A DNA stretch of 64,000 bases from Halopseudomonas laoshanensis (GTDB lineage Bacteria; Pseudomonadota; Gammaproteobacteria; Pseudomonadales; Pseudomonadaceae). The translations under genes and the position numbers were made by a program. The stretch lies in assembly GCF_008365385.1 (NCBI RefSeq), contig NZ_QOVF01000005.1, positions 62,001 through 126,000 of the forward strand, written 5' to 3'. The notes below the pieces were generated by a model that searched no databases, was not told the origin of the DNA, and saw nothing but the letters and a program-made list of their open reading frames with translations. This document shows positions 52,033 to 58,520 of this stretch, piece after piece; the first letter of the stretch is position 1; every line of letters begins with the position of its first letter.

Positions 52033-53583
52033 TCACTTCTGCGGACTCAGGACGCCGGTGTCACTGGGCAATTGATAAGTCCAGGTTTCGGTCAGCGGCG
52101 TGTCTTCCAGTTGCAGATACCCACGCAGCGCGAGCGACTTGTCGGTGGCGGGCCGGACAAGTATGGACAATCTCCAGCGTTTGAGTGGCTCGATATATTC
52201 GACGTAATGGCCCAATACCTCGCCCTCCTCCAGTCCAGTGACCGAGGCCACTACTGGCGCATCGGCAGCCAGTTCATCCAGCGGCCCACCGGCGAAATCG
52301 ACGATCACCCTGACGGCCCCTTCCTGGTAGCCACCCCCCACGCGGTTACCATCTCCGACGTAGGTGTCCATGCTGCGTGCCAACGGCTCTTTGGCGACAT
52401 GTTGATCACCAAAAATGGCGCTGTAGGAAAAGTACTGGGGTTCACCCGGCGTCACGGCAGCCTGGGGACGCCAGAAGGCCACAATGTTGTCGTTGGTCTC
52501 ATTCGGCGTGGGCAGTTGCACCAGAACCACATCACCCTTGCCCCAGTCGCCCTCGGGCTTGATCCAGGCACTTGGGCGCGTATCGTAGCGCGCCTCCTTG
52601 TCCATATAATGCGTGAACTCGTTATCGCGCTGGATCAGGCCAAAACCGCGGATGTTCTCGGTGGCAAAATAGTCCATGGTCAGTGAAGTGGGATTGAGCA
52701 GCGGACGCCACAGCCACTCTTCGGAGCCGCCGTTGTGGATCAGCAGACCATCGGAATCATGCACTTCCGGCCGCCACTCGCCATGCGGCTTGAAGGTGTT
52801 CTGGCCGAAGTAAAACATGCTGGTCAAGGGCGCCACGCCCATCAACTGAACCTCGCTGCGGGGAAACACCACTGACTCGACCTTGAGCTCGGTCTCGTCG
52901 CCGGGCGTAACCGTGAAGCGATAGGCTCCGGTCATGCTGCGGGTATCCAGTAGCGCATGAAAACTGAAACTGGTGTCACCCGGCTTGGGCGTCTCCAGCC
53001 AGTATTCGGTAAAGGCTGGAAATTCCTCGCCTCCCGGAAGCCCGGTGTTGAGAGCCAGACCTCGGCCGGATAGACCGAAATTCGTATCTCGGCTGACGGC
53101 ACGGTAGTAACTGGCACCGGCGAACACCAGAAACTGGTTCTGAATGTCTTCTCCGGCTAACGGAAAGGTCAGTTTGAAGCCGGCATAGCCCAAATCGGCT
53201 GGCACCTGCTGCTCCACTTCCGTGGTCGGGTAGGTAAAGTTGGATTTGCTGAACGCCAGGGGTTCGATCTTGTCGTTTTCAACGATATTGATCGCCACTG
53301 GATGCGTGTAAAAAAGGCCTGTCGGAACCAGCATCGCTTTGAAATCGGCCTCGGAGTCCTGCCACAGACTGTTCTCCGGCTTGAAACGAATACCCTGGTA
53401 TTGGTCGTAGCTCAGGTCACGCATAAAGCGCGGTATCGCCGGCGGCGCCTTATAGGGTTTCTGTGCCAACGCCTCGGCCTTGGCAATAACCCGGTCGCGT
53501 ACGGACTGCTCCTCCGCAATAACCCCACAAGAAAGCATAGAGAGCAAAAGAACGCTCAGTCCAGAGGTAATAACAAGCTTCAT
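52033..53583 (-). CDS. opgG: Periplasmic glucans biosynthesis protein G
   Basis: A 516-residue periplasmic protein of the OpgG/OpgD family, needed to branch or process the glucan backbone made by OpgH. A signal peptide MKLVITSGLSVLLLSMLSCG is seen. Family segments include YDQYQGIRFKPENSLW, SSYRAVSRDTNFGLSGRGLAL-like text (YYRAVSRDTNFGLSGRGLA) and GENRPHFHP-type acid/His residues replaced by FGQNTFKPHGEWRPEVHDSDGL. AGGAAA precedes the ATG. It is the first gene of opgG, the 83-residue gene and opgH. Confidence 0.94.
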   Translation of the reverse strand: MKLVITSGLSVLLLSMLSCGVIAEEQSVRDRVIAKAEALAQKPYKAPPAIPRFMRDLSYDQYQGIRFKPENSLWQDSEADFKAMLVPTGLFYTHPVAINIVENDKIEPLAFSKSNFTYPTTEVEQQVPADLGYAGFKLTFPLAGEDIQNQFLVFAGASYYRAVSRDTNFGLSGRGLALNTGLPGGEEFPAFTEYWLETPKPGDTSFSFHALLDTRSMTGAYRFTVTPGDETELKVESVVFPRSEVQLMGVAPLTSMFYFGQNTFKPHGEWRPEVHDSDGLLIHNGGSEEWLWRPLLNPTSLTMDYFATENIRGFGLIQRDNEFTHYMDKEARYDTRPSAWIKPEGDWGKGDVVLVQLPTPNETNDNIVAFWRPQAAVTPGEPQYFSYSAIFGDQHVAKEPLARSMDTYVGDGNRVGGGYQEGAVRVIVDFAGGPLDELAADAPVVASVTGLEEGEVLGHYVEYIEPLKRWRLSILVRPATDKSLALRGYLQLEDTPLTETWTYQLPSDTGVLSPQK

Positions 53584-53915
53584 TCAGCATTTCCTTGCAA
53601 TGTTGCGGAGTGTCCAGAATCAGATTGATCCAGTCATAAAAGGTTAGCGAGACGCAGATTACCCGCGCACACGAGTATCCAGCCGGCTATTGGCGTTAGT
53701 CCGCACAACTCGCCCACAGTTCCTTGCCAACCGGCGGCGAGAGCCCCGTTATAGCGCGAATATACTCCTTATTTGCAGTTTCAGCGCGAGCTGGCCACCC
53801 GCACTCTGCAGCAAGAGAATCGGGAGCCTGGCTCGCAGGCGAGAATCAAGCAGGACTGGCAAGCCTATAGTTTGCGCGCTAAATTACACGACATATTCTC
53901 GAATCCGGAGCGCAC
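53584..53915. other. Gene-free interval between opgG and ohrR
   Basis: This 332-base divergent interval has no credible gene. It should hold the promoters of opgG (minus strand) and ohrR (plus strand). For ohrR a possible -10, TATAGT, is at 53866-53871, overlapped by the palindromic sequence TTTGCGCGCTAAA at 53871-53883. A GC-rich stem (CCTGGCTCGCAGGC-like) lies near 53827-53840. I see nothing else with structure. Confidence 0.6.
53871..53883 (+). promoter_or_regulatory. Candidate OhrR operator at the ohrR promoter
   Basis: TTTGCGCGCTAAA is nearly palindromic (TTTxGCGCxCTAAA-like) and overlaps a possible -10 hexamer of ohrR. The core TTGCGC-N-CTAA is found again twice upstream of ohr, at 54429-54439 and, without the spacer base, at 54446-54454. 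Shared sites before ohrR and ohr fit autoregulation plus control of ohr. Confidence 0.55.
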
Positions 53916-54365
53916 ATGCCAAAGCAATCCAACTGCGCCGAACTTGAGCTGGATAACCAACTCTGTTTCGCGCTCTATTCCACATCGCTGATGATGACCA
54001 AGATTTACAAGCCACTGCTGGCGGAACTGGGCCTTACCTATCCTCAGTATCTGGCCATGCTGGTACTGTGGGAGAAAGATGGCATTACCGTTGGCGCCAT
54101 CAGCACGCGGTTGTTGACCGACCCGGGCTCCCTGACCCCGCTACTCAAGCGTCTGGAAACCGAAGGCTTGCTTAAACGCGTGCGTAGCAGCCGTGATGAA
54201 CGCGTAGTCGAACTGTTTCTTACGGCAAAAGGCCGGGCCCTACGCGAACGGGCTCAGGATATTCCACGCTGCATCCTTGAAGCCAGTGAACAGCCGATTG
54301 AGGCCCTGGTCGAGCTGCGGGAAACCTTGGCTCAACTGCGTACCCGACTGCAAAAAGCTCTCTAA
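53916..54365 (+). CDS. ohrR: MarR-family organic hydroperoxide regulator
   Basis: A 149-residue MarR-type regulator. Cys17 in ELDNQLCFALYSTS is the conserved peroxide-sensing cysteine of OhrR proteins. The winged helix-turn-helix is GAISTRLLTDPGSLTPLLKRLETEGLLKRVRSSRDERVVELFLTAKG. It is a repressor that, by family knowledge, is oxidised by organic hydroperoxides and releases ohr. ohr follows 174 bases downstream on the same strand, with candidate operators before both genes. Confidence 0.95.
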   Translation: MPKQSNCAELELDNQLCFALYSTSLMMTKIYKPLLAELGLTYPQYLAMLVLWEKDGITVGAISTRLLTDPGSLTPLLKRLETEGLLKRVRSSRDERVVELFLTAKGRALRERAQDIPRCILEASEQPIEALVELRETLAQLRTRLQKAL

Positions 54366-54428
54366 TCCCGCATCCCCGCTAGAATTACGCATGAATTGAC
54401 CCGCCCCGACCAACGGCACGTTTTTATA

Positions 54429-54456
54429 TTGCGCACTAACTACCTTTGCGCTAACC
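54429..54456 (+). promoter_or_regulatory. Candidate double OhrR operator before ohr
   Basis: Two copies of the motif lie close together: TTGCGCACTAA (54429-54439) and TTGCGCTAA (54446-54454), both like the ohrR promoter site TTGCGCGCTAA. They lie about 85 to 110 bases before the ohr start, in the expected promoter region. Confidence 0.55.
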
Positions 54457-54539
54457 TTATTTCAAGCGAGCAAGATCGCCTGGAAAACCTGCCCATGCGC
54501 AGCGTTCGCTACCCACCCTGATTACGTAAGGAGAGTTCC

Positions 54540-54965
54540 ATGTCGATTGAAAAAGTACTGTATCGCGCCTCGGCTGAAGCTACCGGAGGCCGCGAAGGCC
54601 AAGCCATATCATCCGACGGCGTATTGGACGTCGCGCTGACAACGCCCAAGGAGTTGGGCGGTAATGGCGCCAAGGGCACCAATCCTGAGCAGCTGTTCGC
54701 CGCTGGCTATTCAGCCTGTTTTCTCGGCGCGCTGAAGCACGTGTCCGGCGCAGAAAAGGTCAAGCTGCCTGCCGATAGCTCGATTGAAGGCATCGTTGGT
54801 ATCGGCCCTCTGCCCACCGGTTTCGGCATCGAAGTCGAGCTCAGGATAAGCCTGCCCGGACTCGACCCAGCCGTCGCCCAAGACCTGGTAGACAAGGCCC
54901 ATATCGTTTGCCCCTACTCCAATGCCACCCGCGGCAACATCGATGTGACGCTGACGCTGGTGTAA
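54540..54965 (+). CDS. ohr: Organic hydroperoxide reductase Ohr
   Basis: A 141-residue OsmC/Ohr-family thiol peroxidase that reduces organic hydroperoxides. The two redox cysteines are Cys60 in [15 protein letters not shown] and Cys124 in [16 protein letters not shown], the usual pair. The N-terminus [28 protein letters not shown] is also typical. AAGGAGAG precedes the ATG. It is downstream of ohrR and followed by a strong terminator at 54983. Confidence 0.96.
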
Positions 54966-55021: not shown

Positions 55022-55213
55022 GTACTCAAACTATTTTATATCCCGTCTTTTGACGTGAATTTCTTCATCACCGTTACAATCTATAGCCAGACTGATTAGC
55101 CGCGCCCTACCTATCCATGTATGATAGTTACACATATAAGCGATACAGCTGCTCCTTGCCAAGCGCAAAGAGGGGCTGAATCTCCCTTTCAACCGCTCTC
55201 CAGGAGGCTACAC

Positions 55214-56440
55214 ATGAAGAAGGATCCCACTAAAGGTTTTATCGCACTACTCGGCTGGGCACCCAATGCCGTCGAAGCAGCCGCTACCTTTGATCGCCGT
55301 TATGTGGTCGTTGCCCCCGAATGGGCGGAAGAATATTGCAAGACCCACGACATCCCCTTCGTACCCTGGAACTTCGAGCGACTGAACGACCGGTCACTGG
55401 AAATCGCTCAGACCCTGAAGGACATGGGTGTCGATGTTGCCATCCCGCTGTTTGAAGAAACGGTTGAGTGGGCCGGCGCGATCAACTCGGTGCTGCTGGA
55501 CAACCCACGCCTGTTTGGTCAGGCCATGCTCATGCGTGACAAGTCGTTGATGAAGCGTCGCGCTCAGCTGGGTGGTATTCGCGTCGGCATCTTTGAAGAA
55601 GCGCACGACCGTGAAGACGTGATTCGCTTTCTCAAGCGAGTCAACCAGACTCTGCTCAAGCTGGATGGTGATCCGAACGACCCTATTCATTTCAAGGCCT
55701 TCGACAAGGCCGGCTGCCTGGGTCACCGGGTGATACGCACGCCGGACGACGTGGACGCCATTCCGGATGACGAATTTCCGTCGCTGATGGAATCACATCT
55801 GGACGGCTGGGAATTTGCGGTTGAAGCCTGGGTCCACAACGGCAAGATCCGCTTCCTGAACATCTCCGAATATGTCCGTCTGGGCTACTCGGTGCATGTG
55901 CCTGCCTCACCCGATCTGGAGGCGTATCGCCCGCAGATCGTCAAGCAGATCGAGAAGCTGATCAAGACCTTCGATATTGAATTCGGCATGATCCATCCTG
56001 AGTACTTTGTTACCAGTGACGGAGAAATGTACTTTGGCGAAGTCGCCTACCGGCCGCCGGGCTTCAAGGTATTTGAGCTGCTGGAGCGGGTATACAAGGG
56101 CTTTAACGCCTATCACGCCTCAATGCTGGTATTTGATCCGAAGTCCACCGAAGAAGAAGTCAAAGCCTACTTCCCGCGTGAAGTCGAAGATGCTACCGGT
56201 TACGCCGGCTGCTTTGGGGTGTACCCCCGCCGCCGCGTGGTCAGCAAGCTGGAGATGCCCGCCGAGACCGAAGATCATCCGTACTTCGAGTCACACGAGC
56301 TGACCACTCCGATGGAAGAAATGGTCACCAAGCGCACCGCATTTGGCACGCACTGGGGACTGCTGTACTTTGTTGGCGAGGATTCCAAAGTCATGCACGA
56401 CTTGCTCAAGCGTCAGGAAGAGCTCGACTTCTACGTGTAG
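55214..56440 (+). CDS. ATP-grasp family ligase of unknown substrate
   Basis: A 408-residue cytosolic ATP-grasp protein, an enzyme type that joins a carboxylate to an amine or thiol via acyl phosphate. Visible are RDKSLMKRR (108-116) and FKAFDKAGCLGHR with Lys161 for nucleotide binding, and the Mg/acyl-phosphate site GMIHPEYFVTSDGEMYFGEVAYRPPG with Glu263, Glu276 and Arg280. The frame opens at 55121, but the ATG at 55214 has a strong AGGAGG at the right distance. The papain-like gene follows 58 bases later on the same strand, so the two are probably functionally linked. The joined substrates cannot be named. Confidence 0.87.
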   Translation: MKKDPTKGFIALLGWAPNAVEAAATFDRRYVVVAPEWAEEYCKTHDIPFVPWNFERLNDRSLEIAQTLKDMGVDVAIPLFEETVEWAGAINSVLLDNPRLFGQAMLMRDKSLMKRRAQLGGIRVGIFEEAHDREDVIRFLKRVNQTLLKLDGDPNDPIHFKAFDKAGCLGHRVIRTPDDVDAIPDDEFPSLMESHLDGWEFAVEAWVHNGKIRFLNISEYVRLGYSVHVPASPDLEAYRPQIVKQIEKLIKTFDIEFGMIHPEYFVTSDGEMYFGEVAYRPPGFKVFELLERVYKGFNAYHASMLVFDPKSTEEEVKAYFPREVEDATGYAGCFGVYPRRRVVSKLEMPAETEDHPYFESHELTTPMEEMVTKRTAFGTHWGLLYFVGEDSKVMHDLLKRQEELDFYV

Positions 56441-56498
56441 CACATCGGTTTCCGGACCCCTATCATGGGTCGCAACAATTTAGGGTAAGGGGAAGTGT

Positions 56499-58520
56499 GT
56501 GGCTAGCAGCGATGCCGAGCAACAGGTTGATGACAGCAAGTTGGTGTTGCTGCTGTCGCGGTTTGATGATGCTCTCCAGGCGCTGAACAATGCGCCCGAG
56601 TTTGCCAAAATCGGCAAGCTCGACCGGGTATTCGATACAGCTCGGCGGGTTCTGTTGCATGACGGCGGCTGTGTCGGATTGGCCGCCCGTGCTGAGGCTC
56701 TGGAAAGCGCCGGTGTATTCATGGGCTCGGACTGGGACAGCCCGCAAACGCTGATCCCGGCACTGACCGGCAATACCTTGCGCAGCCCGGACGCCAATAC
56801 ACTGGTCATTGAAGCGTTAAGCCAGTTGCGGTTATTGGCGATATCCCGCGGCGATTACGTGCACCCGTCTATGAGTGCAGAGCAAGCGCATCATTTCCTT
56901 ACCCAGGTACTGGCCAACAACCTCGTCCTGCTGTTCACACCGCCCAGCGAAGCCGAACGGGAAACCCAGGGCAGGTTGGCCGTTCTTCCCCGCAACCTGC
57001 TTGAACACCTGGCCAGCTGTATCGGCTACGAATTCATCATCGATCAATTGATTGATGAGATCTGGCGCATCCAGCAGCAACGACCGATTCAGGTCAGCTC
57101 CGTGCGTCGCATGATTACCCAGATAGCGATTTGCCAAGCCAACCCCGAGATCGATCTGGGTACCAGCGGTCAGGGTGCCGACCGACTGGTCAGCAGCCTG
57201 TTCGGACCAACGCACGCGTGCCGTGAAGATCCCGGTATCGAGATCTATCAAGAGCGTCTCGAATACATGGACAACACCGCCTTGCAGAGCGAGGCCACCG
57301 GCTTTGCGCGGGCGATGCATGATACTGGGCTGGTCTCGGCTTACCACACGGTTCTGGTACGGCACTTGCTGAATGAAGGCGAACACCTGCTATCGGAAGC
57401 TCTGGGCCTGTCATCGACAGGTCGCGATTGCCTGATGTGCTACCGCGAACTGGCGCTCAGCCTGATTGACGCCAGCGTCTTCCCTGCTACACCGCAGGCT
57501 ATTTACGGCCTGTCGTTGATGCTGGAGCGCGGCATTCTCTATCAACTGCCAGTAGCCCCTGCGATGTGGCGCCAGCTGGGGTTACCCCTGAGCACCTACA
57601 CCCGGGAACGCTTGGCTATGGCCTTTGGTGACCAGGCCACGCCCGAGGCATTCCTGCTTGAAGGCGTGCTCTGCATGCTGGGTCTGCCGCTGGGCGTGGG
57701 TCAGGGGAATAACCCGACCTGCCAGTCGGCGCGGGCGATGTCCATGTGGGCCTACAATGATCCGGACTACCTGTTGCAGATGGTGACCTGGGCGGCCCGC
57801 GATGACGAAATCATCATGCACTTCGAGGGCCAGGCGATTTCTTCACAGGAAAGCCTGTCCGGGGTAGCCACCAGCCTGCCAATCGATCTGGACCCGGTAT
57901 CCTTGATTGTTGTACCGCATCTGGATCGCATTTATGCGGAGATGGGCCGGCGCTGTATTGGCCGCGAAGGAGATCCGCACCGCTGGGTCAATCCGGAGTT
58001 TCATGGCTGGTGGGCCGGCCGCGGCTTCCGCCTGAATGTGGATGTGCCGACCGGCAAGCTGGTCGATCTGGACGGCTTTCTGCGTCACTTCTATGCTGCT
58101 TACCATCCGTTCCATAACGGCAATCAGCCCTTGATCCACCCCCAGCCTGCGGGCATTGCTGTCACCGACAGCGCGGCGCGTTTTATCGGCTGGCATGCCA
58201 TTACCATCCTGCGGGTGACTCTGGATCCCAAGGATGTGATGCGGGTGTACTTCTTCAACCCGAACAACGACAGCGGTCAGAACTGGGGCGACGGCGTGAC
58301 TGTCAGCACCGCTGGCCATGGCGAGCGGTTTGGGGAGGCTTCACTGCCCTTTGAGCAGTTTCTGTCGCGTCTGTATATTTTCCATTACGACCCGCTTGAG
58401 CATGGCGAAATGGCCACCGTGACACGCGGCGAACTGGATGAAGTGATTGGCTATATCCAGCGCAGCTGGGGTGCAGATCGGTTACCTGCCGGCGACCTGC
58501 AGGGCGATAGCGGCCAGTAG
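56499..58520 (+). CDS. Large protein with papain-like cysteine-hydrolase features, unknown function
   Basis: A 673-residue protein I cannot assign to a named family. The first 390 residues are mostly helical with no clear motif. From there GQGNNPTCQSARAMSMW has Gln402 and Cys408 with the Q-x5-C spacing of papain-like enzymes. Later GWHAITILRV (His566) and YFFNPNNDSGQNWGDGV (Asn587 or Asn589) fit the order Cys, His, Asn of such folds, including transglutaminases and amidases. This is inference from spacing. No signal peptide or membrane segment is visible. The GTG start has AAGGGG upstream. It lies 58 bases after the ATP-grasp gene. Confidence 0.75.
   Translation: MASSDAEQQVDDSKLVLLLSRFDDALQALNNAPEFAKIGKLDRVFDTARRVLLHDGGCVGLAARAEALESAGVFMGSDWDSPQTLIPALTGNTLRSPDANTLVIEALSQLRLLAISRGDYVHPSMSAEQAHHFLTQVLANNLVLLFTPPSEAERETQGRLAVLPRNLLEHLASCIGYEFIIDQLIDEIWRIQQQRPIQVSSVRRMITQIAICQANPEIDLGTSGQGADRLVSSLFGPTHACREDPGIEIYQERLEYMDNTALQSEATGFARAMHDTGLVSAYHTVLVRHLLNEGEHLLSEALGLSSTGRDCLMCYRELALSLIDASVFPATPQAIYGLSLMLERGILYQLPVAPAMWRQLGLPLSTYTRERLAMAFGDQATPEAFLLEGVLCMLGLPLGVGQGNNPTCQSARAMSMWAYNDPDYLLQMVTWAARDDEIIMHFEGQAISSQESLSGVATSLPIDLDPVSLIVVPHLDRIYAEMGRRCIGREGDPHRWVNPEFHGWWAGRGFRLNVDVPTGKLVDLDGFLRHFYAAYHPFHNGNQPLIHPQPAGIAVTDSAARFIGWHAITILRVTLDPKDVMRVYFFNPNNDSGQNWGDGVTVSTAGHGERFGEASLPFEQFLSRLYIFHYDPLEHGEMATVTRGELDEVIGYIQRSWGADRLPAGDLQGDSGQ

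Follow-up and report, generated by a model that had tools for sequence, protein, structure and literature searches.

Two adjacent genes on the forward strand of Halopseudomonas laoshanensis contig NZ_QOVF01000005.1 (positions 62,001–126,000; this 64,000-nucleotide stretch is hereafter the window) encode a predicted ATP-grasp ligase, P1, and a protein with a papain-like domain, P2. We propose, at a probability of about 0.45, that P1 and P2 form a ligase/amidase couple that acts on an amide and serves salt or osmotic adaptation; the amide is probably a small molecule. Both proteins have recognisable folds and invariant active-site residues, their genes are linked and occur in the same genomes, and in some lineages they neighbour genes for an HDAC-family deacetylase or for ectoine synthase (EctC). 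In the samples checked, P2 is nested within EctC-bearing genomes. At least 587 stretches, mostly from salt-adapted bacteria, encode relatives of P2 (596 candidates in genome_contigs), a putative papain-fold hydrolase that lacks a family and typically lies beside a conserved ligase. The overlap with EctC and the operons containing HDAC and EctC genes bear on what may be a new cycle based on a compatible solute or another amide. Relatives of the host bacteria are used to make ectoine.

P2 combines a helical half with a papain-like domain

The AlphaFold model of P2, built with 85 homologues, has a mean predicted local distance difference test score (pLDDT) of 90.4 and a predicted template modelling score (pTM) of 0.86. 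An earlier model built with 13 homologues was set aside (pLDDT 65 overall, with a poor C-terminal domain). The model contains a helical part (residues ~1–395) followed by a papain-like domain (~396–635), and residues 369–639 structurally match the solved structures of calpain and staphopain. An earlier reading of this DNA, made from the sequence only, had assigned P2 to the papain fold from the order of Gln402-x5-Cys408, His566 and Asn587/589. These residues lie where that sequence-only reading had located them and are invariant in 85/85 relatives; identity in the P2 alignment ranges from 39 to 91%. By secondary structure, Cys408 opens a helix (408–420), His566 lies within a strand (562–575) and Asn587 follows directly after another (581–586), an overall order as in papain. 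The predicted fold therefore agrees with the assignment. Cys408 is the proposed nucleophile and Gln402 the proposed oxyanion residue. No signal peptide is apparent in P2 by eye.

The P2 of the window has no Pfam or PDB sequence match at E≤1, and searches with 13 of its relatives against families returned just four weak, unrelated matches (best E 0.01). Sequence searches of solved structures gave nothing under E 0.4 and returned mostly designed helical proteins. By sequence, P2 fell into neither PF00112 nor PF00648 nor any other described family, and it is without a described family in the libraries used.

P1 resembles L-amino acid ligases

Judged by its sequence, P1 is a member of the ATP-grasp superfamily of the L-amino-acid-ligase type, for which ligase activity is predicted. 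Its only Pfam family at E≤1 is PF13535 (ATP-grasp_4), matched at E 5.6e-5 and under the gathering score, and the score against one subfamily model is far under the cut-off. A profile of 38 homologues, which are 72–93% identical to the P1 of the window, matches the ATP-grasp protein 4dim at E 1.5e-4 and the L-amino acid ligases 3vot and 4wd3 at E 6e-4 to 7e-4; the single sequence reaches L-amino acid ligases by phmmer at E 0.0066 at best. Glu263, Glu276 and Arg280, already picked out as ATP-grasp residues from the sequence, are placed correctly and invariant in 38/38 homologues. We take them to be the metal- and ATP-binding Glu pair and the Arg of the family. The segment E276-V-A-Y-R280 aligns with E-V-G-A-R of the L-amino acid ligase BL00235.

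Of the 151 P1 frames collected, 150 close with [FY]-Y-[VI], as do 115 of the 116 left after removal of repeats, no two of which are identical over their last 200 residues; the exception is truncated at the end of its stretch. The free C-terminus of P1 itself thus seems constrained.

P1 and P2 are linked and occur in the same genomes

The loci analysed from genome_contigs are the best 80 of the at least 587 P2-encoding stretches, a total that counts stretches and not species. For the linkage analysis, 136 P2 places were collected, of which seven were dropped for sharing a 60-residue stretch with another place (not all of these were identical proteins). The resulting set of 129 P2 loci leans towards Halomonas relatives. 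At 100 of them, P1 is found no more than 4 kb from P2; 14 have no P1 within 4 kb, and at 15 the flanks are too short to judge. One locus scored as short-flanked, L172, coincides with L255, where 18 kb shows no P1. The linked genes are arranged as P1 followed by P2 on the same strand (82 loci), convergently (12), divergently (4) or as P2 followed by P1 (2), and that the pair has been kept in all four layouts speaks for a functional link. Nearly all linked P1s (97/100) are close to full length, two run off the end of the stretch (L078, L192), and one is a decayed remnant (L075).

In a class-level sample of 369 genomes, P2 is present in 13, and these are also the genomes with P1 at E<1e-200; eight further genomes have just weak ATP-grasp matches (E 2e-25 to 9e-4). 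Among 96 nearer relatives, 15 carry P2 and 16 a strong P1, the additional genome being the fragmented assembly G015, and G037 gives a weak match. Within one order, P2 occurs in 16/17 genomes of one family, 1/4 of a second family and 0/64 of the remainder. The sequence-only reading implied that the two genes should also be neighbours in relatives, and the linkage at 100/129 loci and the co-occurrence in 13/369 genomes support this.

Copies outside the pair were also seen. Six P2 genes of Halomonas relatives (L054, L059, L066, L069, L096 and L109) have no P1 in the fetched stretch. A second P1 lineage, 76–77% identical, occurs with no P2 in the stretch (L115, L116, L117); in L115 a Peptidase_Mx (PF15887) gene precedes P1 on the same strand, and a gene of similar sequence is present in L116 and L117. 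At L111 (8025–12804) and L168 (8279–12868), a GCS2-family ligase gene lies one or two genes downstream of a lone P2 paralogue; in L168 an AstE/AspA-like gene that scores slightly under its cut-off comes after it. P2 may be able to partner another type of ligase. At L113 (552–11604), divergent P2 and P1 paralogues stand directly after genes that we take to be glgC, glgB, glgA and a glucan phosphorylase gene. Neighbours of the pair differ between lineages. The downstream gene order in Halomonas, with what are presumably TlyA-like, mechanosensitive-channel-like and other genes, is probably lineage synteny.

P2 is nested within genomes that encode ectoine synthase

EctC was searched for in the class sample and in the 96 nearer relatives. 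In the class sample it is present in 13/13 P2 genomes, including that of the window, compared with 57/369 genomes overall (Fisher p 8e-12, in tests that treat related genomes as independent). Counting only EctC above the curated cut-off gives 53/369 (Fisher p 3e-12), and by genus the figures are 10/10 P2 genera against 45/272 (p 6e-9). Among the nearer relatives, 15/15 P2 genomes carry EctC; outside the genus of the window the comparison is 3/3 with 17/56 (p 0.035). The named hosts of the best 80 loci belong mostly to genera such as Halomonas, Marinobacter, Aidingimonas and Guyparkeria, which we take to be halophilic or marine. The connection to osmoadaptation, the EctC association and the HDAC-family neighbour described below all go beyond what the sequence-only reading had anticipated.

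At two loci the association is physical. In L118 the EctC gene starts one base past the P2 stop codon, and in L159 the order on one strand is P2-HDAC-P1-EctC. Both EctC proteins score above the NCBIfam ectoine synthase cut-off, and both genes lie near contig ends. The genome of the window has the usual ectA-ectB-ectC-aspartokinase cluster elsewhere (assigned by similarity, ectA by position). We found no open-access paper containing both 'ATP-grasp' and 'ectoine synthase'. In the main text of a review that calls the role of solitary EctC proteins unresolved, HDAC does not appear (PMC5924519). The pair may bear on that role.

Six genomes carry an HDAC-family deacetylase gene next to the pair

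A gene for an HDAC-family deacetylase adjoins the pair in the genome of L090 and in G279, G651, G728, G812 and G964. The assignment rests on PF00850 in L157 and L162 and on similarity for the other neighbours. The reading frames of P2 and HDAC touch or overlap in L159 and L251. The proteins retain the residues that we take to be the family-typical zinc ligands and His-His pair.

With a subfamily threshold of at least 47% identity over nearly the full length, set after the table had been viewed, and 15 hand-picked P2-negative genomes for comparison, the HDAC subfamily is present in 24/39 P2 genomes and 0/15 P2-negative ones (Fisher p 2.5e-5). Within the genus of the window the counts are 2/11 and 0/10; outside it, they are 22/28 and 0/5. 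Close to the threshold, the best P2-negative match is 44% identical (G627), and P2-positive genomes just under the line reach 44–46%.

The genome of the window itself encodes a member of the subfamily (66% identical; L237, 8408–9526, G000:C11) on a separate contig from P1 and P2. In G026, P2 is 99% identical to that of the window, yet the HDAC matches are remote. At L238 (8235–9895), L249 (8498–10073) and L256 (7729–9413), the subfamily gene stands beside a GNAT acetyltransferase gene, which suggests an acetylation/deacetylation couple. Polyamine specificity of the deacetylase was considered and rejected, the nearest solved relatives being HDAC6-type, HDAC15 and bacterial HDAH enzymes, with the polyamine enzyme HDAC10 further down. 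The compared loop differs from that of HDAC6 by a two-residue gap, and the substrate was left unassigned.

A proposed ligase/amidase couple and its alternatives

In the proposed scheme, P1 would activate a carboxylate with ATP and join it to an amine. P2, as a cytosolic papain-fold cysteine hydrolase (Gln402/Cys408/His566/Asn587) with an additional helical domain, would cleave the same or a closely related amide. Together they would most likely make and recycle a small amide, a dipeptide-like or diamine-derived solute, and an HDAC-family deacetylase and ectoine synthase may sometimes join them. The scheme presumes the activities of both proteins, their direction, the shared bond, the small substrate and salt as the cue.

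Several observations weigh against this reading. P2 persists without a neighbouring P1, as seen from the 14 P1-less loci and from L075, where P1 survives as broken C-terminal pieces beside an intact P2 (9652–9965); this speaks against a strict link. P1 is far better conserved than P2, and G078 encodes five full-length P2s and a fragment against two P1s. Given these copy numbers and the P2 paralogues without a nearby P1, the two are not strict one-to-one partners. The salt connection is open to the objection that EctC and P1/P2 may both simply be markers of salt tolerance, with halophily as the confounder. Within the genus of the window, EctC is present in 37/37 genomes and P2 in 12, so EctC does not require the pair. 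Fifteen EctC copies in 12 other P2 genomes do not adjoin P1 or P2 in the fetched stretch, and on this ground we discarded the idea that EctC is a constant partner. In L159, the EctC is 90–91% identical to clustered EctCs of two other genomes and is therefore probably an ordinary ectoine synthase at a new location or an assembly anomaly; the L159 assembly is fragmented (230 contigs) with 4% contamination. Finally, the search showed no close HDAC in 15/39 P2 genomes.

The strongest competitor of the ligase/amidase couple, still some way from likely, is protein tagging, in which P1 would modify proteins with an amino acid or peptide that members of the P2 family would remove, several P2s serving different targets. 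The sequence-only reading had raised both the ligase/amidase cycle and tagging as possibilities. The conservation of P1, single-copy in 12/13 class-sample genomes, and the diversification of P2, with the five full-length copies of G078 as the maximum, fit tagging. The 395-residue helical domain of the model could bind proteins, and calpain- and staphopain-type folds are endopeptidases. The nearest ATP-grasp relatives of P1, however, use free amino acids or small molecules, and the HDAC-family and EctC neighbours suggest small-molecule chemistry.

In an extended form that we consider unlikely, the ligase/amidase couple would belong to a new pathway centred on N-acetyl-diaminobutyrate/ectoine or an acetylated diamine, with the HDAC-family deacetylase and EctC as the other members. 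P1 would then make a new amide compatible solute, which P2 and the deacetylase would recycle on hypo-osmotic shock, and EctC in the same operon would supply or cyclise the precursor. If true, this could place some EctC proteins encoded outside ectABC clusters in a metabolic context, and Halomonas, Marinobacter and their relatives would have a new class of osmolyte chemistry.

More doubtful still is an ordinary pair of dipeptide ligase and peptidase, found in marine and halophilic bacteria and unrelated to osmoadaptation, making for example an antimicrobial or storage dipeptide. The confounding by halophily and the variation of neighbours between lineages are compatible with such a pair, but it would leave unexplained the nesting in EctC-bearing genomes over 10 class-sample genera, and wide retention with a conserved sequence is unlike what we take to be a typical antimicrobial cluster.

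We regard it as quite improbable that P2 works as a regulatory peptidase with P1 or another protein as its target, the P1 tail serving as the recognition site and no amide being shared. This would account for the near-universal [FY]Y[VI] ending, and papain-fold enzymes are commonly proteases; the conserved C-terminus may, however, be purely structural, and P1 is found apart from P2 (L115–L117) as P2 is apart from P1. A transferase of the transglutaminase or peptidyl-transfer type, which would use the P1 product without hydrolysis, is very improbable: papain-fold enzymes presumably include acyl transferases, but the oxyanion Gln and Asn-Pro arrangement of P2 resembles what we take to be the motif of peptidases such as calpain.

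Coordinates and local context

The open reading frames bear out the gene organisation read from the sequence, with two forward-strand genes, a gap of 58 bases (56441–56498) and a second protein of 673 residues (Table 1). The long open reading frame of P1 spans 55121–56440 (439 codons), and its start was placed at ATG 55214, where conservation begins in the alignment of 38 homologues. P2 starts with GTG, preceded by GGGGAAG, and near relatives begin at or close to the same site. Upstream of the pair (52033–54965) lie genes for an MdoG-family periplasmic glucan protein (PF04349), a MarR regulator and an OsmC-family protein. Because a terminator-like hairpin separates the OsmC-family gene from P1, the pair may be its own transcription unit; shuffling gives an expectation of 3.2 hairpins for the region, where one was seen, which is no enrichment, and no sigma-70-like promoter was found ahead of P1.

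Table 1. Positions of P1, P2 and associated features in the window.
Feature	Position	Strand	Basis or detail
P1, predicted ATP-grasp carboxylate-amine ligase, 408 aa	55214..56440 (stop included)	+	Pfam, profile matches, 38-sequence alignment
P2, 673 aa, helical N-terminal half and papain-like C-terminal domain	56499..58520	+	AlphaFold model, structural matches
P1 putative catalytic segment	56000..56053	+	Glu263 56000-56002, Glu276 56039-56041, Arg280 56051-56053
P1 C-terminal end, Asp-Phe-Tyr-Val	56426..56437	+	last three residues fixed across P1 frames
P2 Gln402 (57702-57704), Cys408 (57720-57722)	57702..57722	+	Q-x5-C, 85/85
P2 His566 (58194-58196), Asn587 (58257-58259), Asn589 (58263-58265)	58194..58265	+	85/85
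Terminator-like hairpin, 14 pairs, T-rich tail, between OsmC-family gene and P1	54983..55014	+	pattern match

Comparison with known systems

An anti-phage defence system was rejected, as no PADLOC model matched at E≤0.1, and so was a phage or other mobile origin: no P2 homologue was found in 50,697 phage records and none was confirmed in viral_contigs. P1 and P2 had no match to PHROG at E≤0.1. Among plasmids there is a single P2 record, on a 1.8-Mb Halomonas replicon without annotation. Searches of the open-access literature turned up no title or abstract opening that describes this pair. In the available part of a classification of papain-like proteins, ATP-grasp is named just in a reference title (PMC10318531).

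With solitary EctC proteins (PMC5924519), L118 and L159 share the placement of EctC beside P1 or P2 instead of ectB; the L159 protein differs in resembling clustered EctCs. P1 is like the L-amino acid ligases (BL00235, BacD type; 3vot, 4wd3) in its ATP-grasp core, by weak but significant matches, and in E-V-x-x-R, and differs in being very divergent from them and in its fixed C-terminal tail. P2 shares with the papain/calpain superfamily (calpain core, staphopain, cathepsin B) the order and spacing of Q-x5-C...H...N and the fold of residues 369–639. It differs by its lack of a sequence match, its helical half of ~395 residues and its ligase partner.

Couples of a ligase and a cysteine hydrolase are already known as a theme. 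The gene cluster for the osmolyte N-acetylglutaminylglutamine amide encodes an ATP-grasp-type peptide-bond ligase that carries a fused acetyltransferase, together with a peptidase of the M42 metallopeptidase family; P1 and P2 show neither architecture. In glutathionylspermidine synthetase/amidase (GspSA), the ligase and the cysteine hydrolase both act on one amide. The sequence-only reading had drawn this parallel, and it holds for the overall design but not for family membership, since P1 has just the weak ATP-grasp_4 match and P2 no Pfam match at E≤1. P1 accordingly shows no Gsp-synthetase-type ligase domain, PF13535 being alone at E≤1; for a CHAP-type amidase domain, P2 has no Pfam sequence match at that threshold, and its structural matches leave a relation at the level of the fold possible. 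To judge from these searches, P1 and P2 belong to neither GspSA family. They are separate genes, and the nearest folds returned for P2 are calpain and staphopain; what they share with GspSA is the combination of a putative ATP-using ligase with a putative cysteine hydrolase.

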